A stretch of DNA of 64,000 nt, from the NCBI GenBank assembly GCA_938016265.1, contig CALLWB010000041.1:1-64000 (forward strand), in the 5' to 3' direction. Under the pieces are notes generated by a model that did not search any database, was not told where the DNA came from, and saw nothing but the letters and a program-made list of their open reading frames with translations. Every line of letters begins with the position of its first letter. Within the stretch, counting starts at the first letter, position 1. The stretch is from an uncultured Saprospiraceae bacterium (GTDB lineage Bacteria > Bacteroidota > Bacteroidia > Chitinophagales > Saprospiraceae). The position numbers and the translations under genes were made by a program. Positions 5,420 to 42,513 of this stretch are shown piece after piece.

Positions 5420-5492
5420 TTGGCTCACTAGGGCTCGAACCTAGACTCTTCTGGACCAAAACCAGATGTGTTGCCAGTTACACCATGAGCCA
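5420..5492 (-). tRNA. tRNA-Gln (anticodon TTG)
   Basis: The minus strand folds as a complete cloverleaf. The 7-bp acceptor stem is TGGCTCA/TGAGCCA. The anticodon arm is TCTGG-TTTTGGT-CCAGA with anticodon TTG, and the T arm is CTAGG-TTCGAGC-CCTAG. The discriminator base is A and CCA is not encoded. Anticodon UUG reads CAA/CAG glutamine codons. A -7 box (TAAATTTG, 5516-5509) lies just upstream. Confidence 0.95.
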
Positions 5493-10983: not shown

Positions 10984-12402
10984 TTATTTGTCTTTTTTCC
11001 AGGAGGACTTGCCTTTATTTTTTTTCTTCGTTTTGTCTTCCAGTTTTACGGACATTCCTTGTTCGAGTTTTCTGGAGACGGCGGTGTAGGGCCCGATTAC
11101 TATCTCCTCATTTTCTTCAAGGCCTGATTTTATTTCAATATAAGAATCATCCTGAATTCCGGTTTTTACTTCTTTGAGAATAACGCTGTCCGATTCAAAA
11201 ACAAATACCACTTCTCTGAGCTCGACCTCCTTCACACTTTCCTCTTCGTCTTCATCCTCCCTGGTGGTTACGGCCTGAATAGGGGCGGCCAGAATTCCAG
11301 CAACAACATTGGTCTTTATCTCCACAGAGGCAGACATTCCCGGACGGAAGGGGTACGTCTTTTTCTTTTCCAAAATATCCGAATAAGACGACGGCAACAA
11401 GCGAACTTTAACCGTAAAGTTGGTCACCTGATCCGTATTCAATGAAGAAATTCCCGTCCCCGTATTATTGGCAGAATTGGCGATTTGAGTCACCACCCCC
11501 TTAAATGTCCGGTCAACATAAGCATCCACTTCCACCCTAGCAGTATCGCCAAGTTTCACCCGAAGGACATCATTTTCACTAACATCAACTTGCACTTCCA
11601 TCGAAGACATGTTTGCAATCCGCATGATTTCTGTACCAGCCATCTGAGAAGTACCAACTACGCGTTCTCCTTTCTTCATATTTAGTTTGGAAATCACACC
11701 GCTTACCGGAGCGTAGACCGTGGCTCTTTTGAGGTTGTTCTTCGCTTCCTTTTCGTTTGCTCTTGCGCTTTCTACATTGAATCCTGCTGCTTTTGATCGT
11801 TCTTGTGCGGAGACGATACTTGCTTGTGCAGCCTCTACATTAGCTTCTCCTGCCGCTTTGTTTGCCTTTAATGCGCGCAAGGAAGAATTGGACGCCTGTA
11901 AGTCAGCATCCGAAATAACTCCTTCTTTATGTAGTTTCTGATTTCGATCATAAATATTCTGTGCATTCTCTATTTGAGCGTCAAACTGTAAAATTTGTGC
12001 TTCTGCCTGCTTCAGATTGGATTGGAATTGGGCGATTTGTGATCGGGCGTCTGCCAAACTGGCTTCTGAGCTATTGGCTGTTGCGATTGCACGCTCTACC
12101 ACTGATTTATAGATTTCTGGATTTACTTTTACTAGCAGCTGGCCAACTTTTACGGTATCTCCTTCTTCTACATAAAGTTCGACGATTTCTCCTGAGACAT
12201 CAGAACTGATACTTAGTTCTTCTTCAGGAAATATCCTTCCACTAGCGGTTACGGTTTCAACAATCGTCCTTTTTTTTAATTGCTCGATTTTCACCTCTGT
12301 TTTATTTCGCTCTGCTTTAGATTTATTATTCCACCAGGCAAAAGCCACCATTGCCAAAACAATGACTCCCAGAATAATTAATAACTTATTATTTCCTCTC
12401 AT
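10984..12402 (-). CDS. Efflux periplasmic adaptor (HlyD/MacA type)
   Basis: A 472-aa membrane-fusion protein with one N-terminal membrane anchor (about residues 6-24). A lipoyl half-domain follows (GEIVELYVEEGDTVKVGQLL), then a long alpha-hairpin (about 115-225, rich in AQ/EA heptads) and the second lipoyl half (VYAPVSGVISKLNMKKGERV). The beta-barrel and membrane-proximal regions complete it, and the C terminus is very basic (KDKTKKKNKGKSSWKK-like). Such adaptors bridge an inner-membrane pump and a TolC channel. The TolC partner is 43 nt upstream. No ABC or RND pump gene follows, which is unusual, since MacB-type genes normally complete the set. Confidence 0.9.
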   Translation of the reverse strand: MRGNNKLLIILGVIVLAMVAFAWWNNKSKAERNKTEVKIEQLKKRTIVETVTASGRIFPEEELSISSDVSGEIVELYVEEGDTVKVGQLLVKVNPEIYKSVVERAIATANSSEASLADARSQIAQFQSNLKQAEAQILQFDAQIENAQNIYDRNQKLHKEGVISDADLQASNSSLRALKANKAAGEANVEAAQASIVSAQERSKAAGFNVESARANEKEAKNNLKRATVYAPVSGVISKLNMKKGERVVGTSQMAGTEIMRIANMSSMEVQVDVSENDVLRVKLGDTARVEVDAYVDRTFKGVVTQIANSANNTGTGISSLNTDQVTNFTVKVRLLPSSYSDILEKKKTYPFRPGMSASVEIKTNVVAGILAAPIQAVTTREDEDEEESVKEVELREVVFVFESDSVILKEVKTGIQDDSYIEIKSGLEENEEIVIGPYTAVSRKLEQGMSVKLEDKTKKKNKGKSSWKKDK

Positions 12403-38250: not shown

Positions 38251-41196
38251 ATGAAAAATATTCAGTTCGTTTCCTGGATGCTCTTGTTAACGTTGATTGG
38301 TTTTACTTCTTGTAAAAACGCTCCAATCAGTAAGTATACTTATGAAACAGCAGCCAACGACCCTTTAAATGCTAAGATTTATACCCTTGACAATGGGTTG
38401 AAAATCTATATGAGTGTCTACAAAGATGAGCCGCGTATTCAGACCTATATCTCTGTAGCCTCTGGGTCAAAACACGATCCCGCACATTGCACTGGGCTTG
38501 CTCATTATCTAGAACATATGATGTTTAAAGGTACAGACAAAATAGGCTCTTTGGATTGGGAAAAGGAAAAAGTGATGCTTCAACAAATCTCCGATCTATA
38601 CGACGAACATAGTAAAGAAAAGGATCCTGCAAAACGAAAGGCGATCTACAAAAAAATTGACGAGGTTTCGAACAATGCGGCTAAACTAGTCGCCGCCAAC
38701 GAATATGATAAAATGGTCGGTTCGCTGGGAGCAAAAGGCACCAACGCATATACCTCCGTAGAAGAAACCGTTTATGTCAATGATATTCCTTCTAATGAAT
38801 TGAGAAAGTTCTTGGCCCTTGAGTCCGAACGGTTTAAAATGTTAGTCCTTCGATTGTTCCACACGGAGCTGGAGGCTGTTTACGAAGAGTTTAATATTAG
38901 CCAGGATCGGGATGGCCGCAAGGTAAACAAGGCGTTATTCCAATCCTTATTTCCAAACCACACCTACGGTACACAAACCACCATTGGAGAAGGAGAACAC
39001 TTGAAAAATCCATCGCATGTTGAAATTCATAAGTACTTCAACAAGTTTTATGTACCTAACAATATGGCTGTTATTTTAAGTGGAGATTTCAATCCTGACG
39101 ACGCAGTAGATATGGTCAAAGAGTATTTTGGCGATATGAAAACAAAAGAAATTCCTGAATGGACGTTTGAAGAACAACCAGAGATCAAAGCACCCATCGT
39201 ACATGAAATCTTTGGCCAGGAAGAAGAGTTTGTAGACAATGGATGGAGACTGGGTGGAGCGAAAACGGATGATGCCATTAAAATGGAATTGGTCACTAAA
39301 ATTTTATCCAACGGCCAGGCTGGATTGATCGATTTGAATTTAATTCAAAAACAAAAAATCCTTAAAGGAACAGCCTATGGTTGGAGCTGGGCAGACTACT
39401 CTCTTTTTGGTATTGAAGGCAATCCAAGAGAAGGCCAAAAGCTAGAAGAAGTCCGCGACCTGCTACTAGGAGAACTGGAAAATTTGAAAGCCGGAAAATT
39501 TGATGAATGGTTGGTGGAAGCCTGTAAGAAAGACATCAAACTTTCACGAATGAAACAGCTGGAATCCAACCGTGGTCGAGCTAGCGAACTAAACGAGGCG
39601 TTTGTACGTGGATTGGATTGGGATTTCTACGCTTCAAAATTTGACCGGATGGACAAAATTACGAAAGCCGATTTGGTGGATTTCGCTAAAAAGAATCTAA
39701 ACGACAACCGCGTACTCATTTACAAGCGCACCGGGACCGACAAGGACGCCATGAAAGTCGAAAAACCAACCATCACTCCAGTAGAACTGAACAGAGAAAA
39801 GGAATCGAACTTCCTTGCTGATTTCAACAAAATGGAGTCGGATGTCATCAACCCAGTTTTTGTAGACTATAAAAAAGACATCAAAGAATTGAAACTGGAC
39901 AATGGTGTTGCTTTAGATTACATAGAAAACCCTTACAATAAGACCTTCAGTTTATACTATGTTTTTGAAATGGGTAAGATGCATGACAAGAAATTGCCCT
40001 TGGCGATCAAGTACCTGCCTTACCTTGGTACGGACAAATATTCTGCGGAACAATTGCAACAAGAGTTTTTCAAATTGGGCGTGAGTTTCGATGTCTTTAG
40101 TTCTGACGATCGGGCCTATGTGACGCTTAGTGGACTGGAAGAATCTTTGGAGCAGGGTGTTGAGCTATTCGAACATATTCTTGCCAATGTAAAAGCAGAC
40201 GATACCGCCTTAGCTGGCGTGGTAAAGGATATCATAAAATCTCGTCAGGATTCGAAAAAAGACAAACGCACCATCCTTCGCCAGGCAATGGGCAACTACG
40301 CTAAATACGGTCCACTTTCGTCCTTCACCGATATTATCCCTGAAACAGAATTGAAAACAATCAAAGCGCAGGAATTGGTTAGTAAAATAAAAGGGTTGAC
40401 AGGATACGAGCACCGCGTTTTTTATTACGGTAAAAATTCTGCGTCTTCTGTAAAAGCACTGATAAACAAATACCATAAAGTCCCTGCTGAGCTAAAACCA
40501 TATCCAGCTAAAACAGAGTACAAGGAGGTCGCGACCACAGAAAACAAAGTATATTATGTCGATTTCCCGATGGTTCAGGCGGAAATTTTGATGCTGTCTA
40601 AGGGAGATAAATACGATGCGGAACAGGATATGATGGCGGATCTGTACAACAATTATTTCGGGTTTGGGTTGTCGTCTATCGTCTTTCAGGAGATTCGAGA
40701 ATCTAAAGGATTGGCCTATTCTGCTTATGCGTACTACTCTTCTCCAGATGAGAAAAAGGAATCTCACTATCTGCAAGCTTACCTCGGCACGCAGGCTGAC
40801 AAATTGAAGGATGCCGTTCCAGAAATGGAAAACATCCTAACCAACATGCCTGTCGCCGACTCGCAAATAGAAAATGCACGCTCTTCCTTATTGAAAAAAA
40901 TCGAAAGTGAGCGGATTACTAAAACGGGTATTTATTTCAATTATCTAGCAAACAAAAAACTGGGATACGACTACGACATTAGAAAAGACCTTTATAATAA
41001 AATGAAATCAACCACGAAGGAAGACCTCCTTCAGTTTCATGAGAAAAATGTAAAGGACCGTAAATTTACTTATCTGGTGCTTGGCGAAAAAAGCCGAATC
41101 AATATGGACTACCTAAAAACGATCGGAAACGTAGAAGAATTGACCATGGAGCAAATTTTTGGTTATAAAGACGAAAACACAAGCATCAAAAATTAG
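38251..41196 (+). CDS. M16-family zinc metallopeptidase lipoprotein
   Basis: A 981-aa protein with a lipoprotein signal and Cys21 (GFTSC), followed by the inverted zinc motif HYLEH at residues 85-89 (His85, Glu88, His89) in the first M16 repeat. The C-terminal half (about 560-970) is a second, inactive M16-like pair, with QEIRESKGLAYSAYAYYS as the typical substrate-binding segment. Full-length single-chain enzymes of this kind resemble pitrilysin/insulinase and form a closing chamber for peptides. As an envelope lipoprotein it likely degrades peptides in the periplasm. An intrinsic terminator follows. Confidence 0.93.
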   Translation: MKNIQFVSWMLLLTLIGFTSCKNAPISKYTYETAANDPLNAKIYTLDNGLKIYMSVYKDEPRIQTYISVASGSKHDPAHCTGLAHYLEHMMFKGTDKIGSLDWEKEKVMLQQISDLYDEHSKEKDPAKRKAIYKKIDEVSNNAAKLVAANEYDKMVGSLGAKGTNAYTSVEETVYVNDIPSNELRKFLALESERFKMLVLRLFHTELEAVYEEFNISQDRDGRKVNKALFQSLFPNHTYGTQTTIGEGEHLKNPSHVEIHKYFNKFYVPNNMAVILSGDFNPDDAVDMVKEYFGDMKTKEIPEWTFEEQPEIKAPIVHEIFGQEEEFVDNGWRLGGAKTDDAIKMELVTKILSNGQAGLIDLNLIQKQKILKGTAYGWSWADYSLFGIEGNPREGQKLEEVRDLLLGELENLKAGKFDEWLVEACKKDIKLSRMKQLESNRGRASELNEAFVRGLDWDFYASKFDRMDKITKADLVDFAKKNLNDNRVLIYKRTGTDKDAMKVEKPTITPVELNREKESNFLADFNKMESDVINPVFVDYKKDIKELKLDNGVALDYIENPYNKTFSLYYVFEMGKMHDKKLPLAIKYLPYLGTDKYSAEQLQQEFFKLGVSFDVFSSDDRAYVTLSGLEESLEQGVELFEHILANVKADDTALAGVVKDIIKSRQDSKKDKRTILRQAMGNYAKYGPLSSFTDIIPETELKTIKAQELVSKIKGLTGYEHRVFYYGKNSASSVKALINKYHKVPAELKPYPAKTEYKEVATTENKVYYVDFPMVQAEILMLSKGDKYDAEQDMMADLYNNYFGFGLSSIVFQEIRESKGLAYSAYAYYSSPDEKKESHYLQAYLGTQADKLKDAVPEMENILTNMPVADSQIENARSSLLKKIESERITKTGIYFNYLANKKLGYDYDIRKDLYNKMKSTTKEDLLQFHEKNVKDRKFTYLVLGEKSRINMDYLKTIGNVEELTMEQIFGYKDENTSIKN

Positions 41197-41233
41197 TCGG
41201 TTACACAAAATAAACACCACTTCGAAAAGATTA

Positions 41234-41267
41234 AGAGGTAGGAGCAAAAGCTTCTGCCTCTTTTTTT
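41234..41267 (+). terminator. Intrinsic terminator of the M16 gene
   Basis: AGAGGTAGGAGC (41234-41245) pairs over 12 bp (two G-U) with GCTTCTGCCTCT (41250-41261), loop AAAA, followed by a T-run to 41267. Confidence 0.85.
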
Positions 41268-41289
41268 ATTGACACCCTTTTGTTTTCGT

Positions 41290-41317
41290 TGAAATAATTT
41301 GTTTGAAATAATTTGTT
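41290..41317 (+). repeat. Tandem 14-bp repeat overlapping a promoter
   Basis: GAAATAATTTGTTT occurs twice in direct tandem (41290-41303 and 41304-41317). The second copy supplies the -33 TTTG of the small-RNA promoter. Confidence 0.8.
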
Positions 41318-41343
41318 TTTATTGTGGCCGTGCCTTATCTTTG
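41312..41343 (+). promoter_or_regulatory. Canonical promoter of the small RNA
   Basis: TTTG (41312-41315) and TATCTTTG (41336-41343) are separated by 20 nt, a full match to the Bacteroidota -33/-7 promoter. No ORF follows on this strand before the terminator at 41485-41526. Confidence 0.75.
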
Positions 41344-41349
41344 TAAGCA

Positions 41350-41526
41350 CAATCCCAAAGAACTTAGTTTAAGTTCTACGGATATTTTTATAGCAAAAAA
41401 GTTTGTTATAAGCAGTGTGGTCTGGCGTAACTGGCTTATTGTTATTCACCAGACGGCACTTTAAAATGCGGGTTTTTTAGATTCGCCTCTGAACTTTCTT
41501 GCGCGGGTTCAGGGGCATTTTTTTTT
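41350..41526 (+). ncRNA. Unidentified structured small RNA of about 180 nt
   Basis: A non-coding transcript is predicted from a canonical promoter (41312-41343) and an intrinsic terminator (GCCTCTGAAC 41485-41494 with GTTCAGGGGC 41507-41516, then nine T). Between them are three hairpins. H1 is GAACTT-AGTTT-AAGTTC (41360-41376). H2 is TTATAGCAAA-AAAG-TTTGTTATAA (41388-41411). H3 is a long stem (41414-41460) built from AGTG/CACT, GTCTGG/CCAGAC and GTAAC/GTTAT. CCCAAAG near the 5' end could pair with CTTT and GGG after H3. It lacks features of tmRNA, RNase P or SRP RNA that I know. A 6S-type or trans-acting regulatory RNA is possible. A small ORF lies on the opposite strand. Confidence 0.65.
41485..41526 (+). 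terminator. Intrinsic terminator of the small RNA
   Basis: A 10-bp stem with one G-U pair and an 11-12 nt loop is followed by ATTTTTTTTT. Orientation is plus only. Confidence 0.85.
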
Positions 41527-41723
41527 GTTAGATGGGAATTGATAATTTTTGTTTGCGAGAAAAAGAGCGTTGCTAAACCAAAAAGAGCTACAATTTTCAT
41601 TGTGACTCCTTCTAAATTAAGTCGGAGCGGCAGGATTCGACATGTTCTTAAAACAGGTTTCTAAAAAACCTTATTCTCTATGAATTTCGCATGCTGCTAC
41701 AAAACCTTGATCTATCAGTCTCT

Positions 41724-42135: not shown

Positions 42136-42513
42136 ATGAAAAACTTAATACTCTTCTTTGCTGTTCTTTTTATGCTTCCTGCTTGTGTTAATACCAGCCA
42201 GACAGTAGATGATAATGATTCCTACTCAAAATCTCCTTGTGAAGCAAGTCCTAAAGATCCAACACAAGTAGAATGGATGAATACCATCATCGCAAAAAGA
42301 GACGTAACAAAAGTGATTCGATATGACTACAACGACAAACCCGTTTATTTCTTTAAAGTAACCAAGTGCTGCGACTTCCAAAGCTACTTGCAAGATTGTG
42401 AAAATAATAGAATTTGTGTCGACGGAGGCATGACCGGAGGAGACTGCCAAGCAATCTTCCGACAATTAACCAACGAGACCACCATCTGGGAAATAGATTC
42501 CGCAGCAGAATAA
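42136..42513 (+). CDS. Small Cys-rich lipoprotein
   Basis: A 125-aa protein with a lipoprotein signal (LPAC, Cys17). The mature part contains VTKVIRYDYNDKPVYFFKVT and CCDFQSYLQDCENNRICVDG followed by GMTGGDCQAIFRQ. This spacing of Cys pairs and the 'YDYNDKPVYF...CCD...ICxxxGGxTG' order matches a family of small Bacteroidota lipoproteins of unknown function (I believe DUF6970, from memory). It should sit in the envelope, with at least two possible disulfides. It is monocistronic; the TACCTTTA at 42101-42108 is a near-consensus -7 box. Confidence 0.65.
   Translation: MKNLILFFAVLFMLPACVNTSQTVDDNDSYSKSPCEASPKDPTQVEWMNTIIAKRDVTKVIRYDYNDKPVYFFKVTKCCDFQSYLQDCENNRICVDGGMTGGDCQAIFRQLTNETTIWEIDSAAE

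Follow-up and report, generated by a model that had tools for sequence, protein, structure and literature searches.

The window analysed in the present study, a stretch of 64,000 nucleotides from an uncultured Saprospiraceae bacterium, very probably contains a real, selected, structured RNA gene at positions 41312–41526 of the plus strand. Sequence and folding analyses place a promoter, three hairpins, a linker and an intrinsic terminator in series within this locus, and a second species of the same genus has a homologue that keeps both ends and the middle of the gene, with compensatory changes in the stems. The product is most likely a lineage-specific small regulatory RNA, ordinary in kind. 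The whole reading preferred here, that of a free-standing small RNA whose linker would pair with mRNAs in trans, helped by an RNA recognition motif (RRM) protein, is given a probability of roughly 0.55, and the chances that the RNA works chiefly through base pairing in trans are likewise put slightly above even.

Location and architecture of the RNA gene

As stated in the preliminary description, which was made from the letters of the window and a list of its open reading frames, the RNA gene lies between a gene for an M16 peptidase and a gene for a small lipoprotein. The M16 gene (Peptidase_M16, 38251–41196) is situated upstream and is followed by a terminator-like site at 41233–41262; on the other side, a gene encoding a 125-aa lipoprotein-like protein (DUF6970) begins at 42136 and is followed by ruvB. 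The next sizeable gene on the plus strand starts ~610 nt past the RNA terminator. The earlier statement that no plus-strand ORF is found within the locus needs a qualification: a mechanical 46-aa ORF with a GTG start is present at 41324–41464, but its start falls within the promoter, so the transcript could not carry the whole of it. On the minus strand, at 41618–41645, a segment (TCGAATCCTGCCGCTCCGAC) looks by eye like the 3′-terminal part of a tRNA or tmRNA; Rfam and ARAGORN scans gave no match at this place, and the segment might be an old integration scar.

The promoter (41312–41343) is of the Bacteroidota housekeeping type and consists of a −33 box TTTG (41312–41315), a 20-nt spacer and a −7 box TATCTTTG (41336–41343); the published consensus for the phylum includes TTTG around −33 and TAnnTTTG at −7 (PMC7366714). 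The window contains three matches of this promoter type against 2.45 expected, and a match alone is unremarkable; the promoter is credible because the homologue has the same two boxes with the same 20-nt spacing, and the boxes and the distance between them given in the preliminary description are confirmed. Judging by the position of the −7 box, transcription would start at about 41347. The −33 box and ~15 bases upstream of it are spanned by a conserved element, ATTTGTTTGAAATAATTTGTTTT (41297–41319), where 22 of 23 bases are identical in the homologue; it is possibly a UP-like element or a regulator site. Two 14-nt direct copies, TTTCGTTGAAATAA and TTTGTTTGAAATAA, which are 86% alike, stand head to tail at 41284–41311, just upstream of the −33 box.

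Folding predictions located the three stable hairpins in series that had been noticed earlier and indicated that the body of the RNA folds far better than shuffled sequences. The segment 41344–41463 folds at −38.1 kcal/mol, its shuffles averaging −21.4 (z −5.4, with none of 300 shuffles as low), and for the whole RNA (41346–41531) the z value is −5.2 (none of 200 shuffles as low). Hairpin 1 (41352–41383) reaches z −4.5 when folded alone, again with 0 of 300 shuffles as low. Hairpin 2 (41388–41411) has a 10-bp stem and an AAAG loop, and all 10 of its pairs are standard in both copies; hairpin 3 (41414–41460) has a stem of up to 12 bp and a large apical part, with one mismatch (G–G) in the window copy and an end pair that meets a gap. 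These are followed by the linker AAATGCGGGTTTTTTAGA (41464–41481), the proposed interaction site, which is identical to the homologue at 18 of 18 positions; it is unpaired in the predicted fold of the homologue and lies partly within a small local hairpin in that of the window copy. The gene ends with a strong intrinsic terminator (41485–41526), composed of a 12-bp stem (41485–41516), an A and nine T (41518–41526), in agreement with what had been described.

The homologue in a second species and evidence for selection

A BLAST search of 60 genomes, the window genome (G000) included, revealed one other copy of the RNA, on contig CALGAW010000039.1 of a metagenome bin from an uncultured Saprospiraceae (G002), which represents another species of the same genus. 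The G002 copy sits downstream of a gene for a TPR protein and not beside the M16 gene; the contig carrying the M16 gene in G002 ends 166 nt past that gene. Since the neighbours differ between the two genomes, the RNA does not belong to an adjoining gene. What the copies have in common comprises the upstream element, both promoter boxes at equal distance, hairpin 2 (stem and loop), the stem of hairpin 3, the linker and the terminator. Hairpin 1 is conserved solely as a shape, not in sequence: its counterpart in G002 has a different sequence and folds with z −2.2 (12 of 300 shuffles as low).

The distance between the two species makes this similarity informative. The M16 proteins of G000 and G002 are 76% identical, and 30% of the 248 fourfold sites that can be compared in their genes are identical, which corresponds to saturation; DNA free of selection is therefore expected to be barely alignable. 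Of the 2920 windows of 18 nt in the M16 gene, only 21 are perfectly conserved.

The predicted stems have changed in a manner that keeps the pairing. Across both copies, 62 of the 63 pair cells of hairpins 2 and 3 and the terminator are standard, and five two-sided and six one-sided changes retain the pair. One two-sided and two one-sided changes belong to hairpin 2, two and three, respectively, to hairpin 3, and two and one to the terminator stem. When the partners were slid by one to three columns as a control, the share of paired cells was 36.5–45.3%. In a shuffle control of covariation, 8 of 500 shuffles reached the observed values, a control that has little power because it deals with two sequences; as the homologues known are two, the covariation rests on a single comparison. 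In the alignment used for the pair counts, one of the two sequences was taken without eight letters located beside the helices; the unaltered homologue, when placed on the resulting model, has every pair standard, and the window copy has one exception.

Thus, folding and the second species, where both ends and the middle of the gene are found together with compensatory changes, uphold the earlier proposal of a well-delimited structured RNA that has a promoter and a terminator of its own. The preliminary description had also made this proposal depend on conservation of the hairpins and the promoter in relatives: in G002 they are kept, with the above reservation about hairpin 1, and the remaining species of the genus that was searched, G001, has no match.

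Distribution and relation to known RNA families

In G001, the third of the searched species in this genus (93% complete, 670 contigs), neither BLAST nor the covariance model found a convincing copy, and inspection by eye of 1.5 kb after its M16 gene revealed no such RNA. Downstream of this M16 gene, a MITE-like element was observed (G001 L005, 1002–1239), with 22-nt inverted repeats that are 91% complementary and 194 nt apart, and with an inner hairpin.

With an E limit of 1, the covariance model (R1) matched 3 of 40 genomes; with a limit of 0.1, it matched 6 of 298 genomes of the family. The copies in G000 and G002 score ~150 bits, and all other matches score 21–28 bits and have broken pairs or lack the linker. 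The run on 298 genomes used stricter filters, with no more than 10 candidates per genome scored, and for this reason may have missed diverged copies. BLAST with the homologue as a query and an E limit of 0.1 gave matches in 49 of 199 genomes of the family. Fifteen of the 28 loci beyond the G000 and G002 copies were looked at: the 12 viewed at the match were chance-like, several of them being inside coding sequence, and L039, L052 and L053 reach the contig end. The linker pattern, with one mismatch allowed, is present in four genomes among the 60 relatives; the matches in G055 and G035 were rejected, as their surroundings contain no such RNA. In the named genome collection, the linker pattern occurs at 22 loci, the sole homologue among them being the G002 record. 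No copy was found in viral contigs, searched with the exact pattern, or in plasmids and phages, searched with blastn. The RNA is present in a single copy in G000 and, within the searched set, is confined to two of the three species of one genus.

A scan with Rfam 15 at curated scores assigned no family to the RNA, and the sole match in the window was a tRNA at 5420–5492; the designation of the RNA as unidentified in the preliminary description still stands in this respect. It had also been noted that the RNA could not be matched to tmRNA, SRP RNA or RNase P; the corresponding Rfam models are silent, and ARAGORN found no tmRNA in the window. Permissive scans produced nothing but weak matches, under the cut-offs, for the window copy (14 matches), the right flank and the homologue (three matches). 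PyrR obtained 18.6 and 19.1 bits in the two copies, compared with a cut-off of 54, and was taken as a chance match; in the PyrR alignment of the window copy, large insertions accompany the placement of the first two hairpins and the terminator on the model, and no pyrimidine gene is adjacent. The best E-values of the permissive window scan (STnc400, 0.036) are located on the terminator of the M16 gene.

Proposed function and comparison with known systems

In the preferred reading, the housekeeping sigma factor would read the promoter at 41312–41343, perhaps with the aid of a regulator bound at the conserved element 41297–41319, which includes the −33 box. The transcript, predicted to be ~180 nt long, would fold into hairpins 1–3 and stop at the terminator, a scheme supported by the comparison of the two copies. 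Protection of the RNA and exposure of the linker AAAUGCGGGUUUUUUAGA are the probable roles of the hairpins, and the linker would serve as the working site and pair with mRNAs in trans; by analogy with Bacteroides, an RRM protein similar to RbpB may be the likeliest helper. Searches for Hfq found it in none of 20 genomes, and RRM matches were obtained in 10 of 13 genomes, including four in G000, three in G001 and one in G002. In Bacteroides thetaiotaomicron, small RNAs of the FopS family are bound by the RRM protein RbpB and pair in the vicinity of start codons (PMC11697453). Trans base pairing with an RRM helper is favoured because no Hfq was detected, RRM proteins are present and RbpB with FopS offers a precedent.

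The 11-nt complement of the linker, AAAAAACCCGC, has 12, 2 and 1 sites in G000, G002 and G001, respectively, versus 9, 3 and 11 sites for the reversed control; the figures for G000 and G002 each include the RNA gene itself (2 of the 15 sites). These counts show no excess over the control, and inspection of 14 of the 15 sites revealed no gene common to the species. One site in G002 is located ~60 nt before a GcvP-like gene, and one site in G000 is located ~110 nt before an HU-like gene (both names given by eye), but these sites are not regarded as evidence, since orthologous pairs are absent.

The failure of this simple search to find a target common to the species suits the main rival to trans base pairing, namely protein titration, where the linker and the loop of hairpin 2 would bind and titrate RNA polymerase or an RRM protein, with no pairing to mRNA. 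The fully conserved 18-nt linker, longer than the ~6–10-nt seeds reported for Hfq-dependent RNAs (PMC7366714), and the RRM proteins encoded in the genomes can be read in the same way. However, the shape of the RNA is not 6S-like, repeated binding sites as in sponge RNAs are missing, and the partner protein is hypothetical; protein binding without mRNA pairing is a serious contender, though distinctly less probable than pairing in trans. It seems rather unlikely that the RNA is the founder of a new genus-level family, with the linker as a site for RNA polymerase or an RRM chaperone, and that it acts as a global regulator in these Hfq-less bacteria.

Another rival reading is that of a type I antitoxin. 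On the minus strand, an ORF at 41442–41600 encodes 52 aa starting with MKIVALFGLATLFF, a signal-peptide-like sequence, and an AAGGAG-like stretch precedes its ATG; the 3′ ends of the RNA and of this ORF overlap by ~85 bases. Such a tail-to-tail overlap with a gene for a small secreted or hydrophobic peptide would be expected of a type I antitoxin similar to RatA, which overlaps txpA by ~120 nt (PMC3531473). The 52-aa peptide, however, has no match in 59 other genomes and no Pfam match, and in G002 the opposite frame survives solely where it faces the linker and the terminator, while the features of the RNA are conserved, which makes the antitoxin reading improbable.

It is more doubtful still that the RNA represents the lineage's 6S RNA, diverged beyond the reach of the Rfam model. 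6S RNA has its ends closed by a single long duplex, within which there is a central bubble. The preliminary description had considered a 6S-type RNA and doubted it, with good reason: no 6S match was obtained at E up to 10, both copies are composed of serial hairpins and not of an end-closed duplex with a central bubble, and the covariance model finds the RNA absent from G001 and the other genomes of the family, although wide occurrence would be expected of a housekeeping RNA. The length of ~180 nt would be appropriate, and the 6S model RF00013 finds no other 6S gene in the relatives either (0 of 60 genomes of this order, compared with 4 of 14 control genomes); as a model that misses all 60 relatives and finds 4 of 14 controls may be blind here, its silence in the phylum is weak evidence, and the relatives either lack 6S RNA or have one too diverged for RF00013. 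A role as leader or attenuator for a gene downstream, which the terminal position of the terminator and a same-strand ORF starting ~130 nt downstream in G002 might suggest, is just as improbable, given the distance to the next sizeable plus-strand gene in the window, the different neighbours in G000 and G002 and the lack, in the predicted folds, of an anti-terminator alternative pairing common to both copies.

Genus-limited small RNAs are numerous, and in this regard the finding is normal: this is an RNA gene without an Rfam family, but of a common kind. It adds to a family of environmental bacteria an RNA gene that is backed by comparison and has no match in Rfam 15. A literature search joining Saprospiraceae and small RNAs found no paper; most subscription journals lay outside its scope, and absence is not proven by it. 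The identical 18-nt linker, standing in a saturated background, provides a precise site for mutation and a bait with which to identify whatever takes the place of Hfq in these bacteria.

Several known systems share some of these features. 6S RNA (RF00013) has a similar length and a free-standing gene, but its duplex with a central bubble is missing here. RatA of the txpA/RatA pair is described as structured and, at its 3′ end, as overlapping a small ORF of the opposite strand (PMC3531473), as is the case here; unlike in pairs of that type, it is the RNA that is conserved in the Saprospiraceae locus, and the opposite ORF is not. GibS and FopS of B. thetaiotaomicron, according to the accounts in PMC7366714 and PMC11697453, are likewise intergenic, possess their own promoter and intrinsic terminator, occur where there is no obvious Hfq and are bound by the RRM protein RbpB. 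FopS comprises a family of 14 members, 65–70 nt in length, with a single-stranded 5′ seed directly before the terminator (PMC11697453); unlike FopS, the present RNA is a single-copy RNA of ~180 nt, where the hairpins come first and the conserved linker is located just before the terminator.

A layout that recalls the Bacteroides FopS family was observed on the minus strand of G008:C132, where two short RNA-like elements (~11130–11233 and ~12105–12229; L069, L070, L112 and L113) are located ~970 bases apart. Both contain the same 39-nt stretch, TACAACGGAATTTTATAAATTAGGGTTTTAGTAAGGGTT, which is preceded by a box of the TATNTTTG type and directly followed in each element by a separate terminator hairpin of different sequence; a 30-nt pattern of these elements, with up to three mismatches allowed, was found in 1 of 298 family genomes.

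In Flavobacterium psychrophilum, 85 independent RNAs have been newly described, with a median length of 176 bp, 40 of them being antisense to coding genes (PMC9723704). These RNAs, e.g., Rfp18, come from the same phylum and, as described in that work, are free-standing, strongly folded and without an Rfam family, like the RNA considered here. The expression of Rfp18 has been measured, a deletion mutant is available and protease targets have been predicted (PMC9723704), whereas the present RNA is known from sequence alone and is likened to Rfp18 by description. Several of the F. psychrophilum RNAs are reported to be conserved within the genus or somewhat beyond it (PMC9723704), and the range of the Saprospiraceae RNA is likewise narrow.
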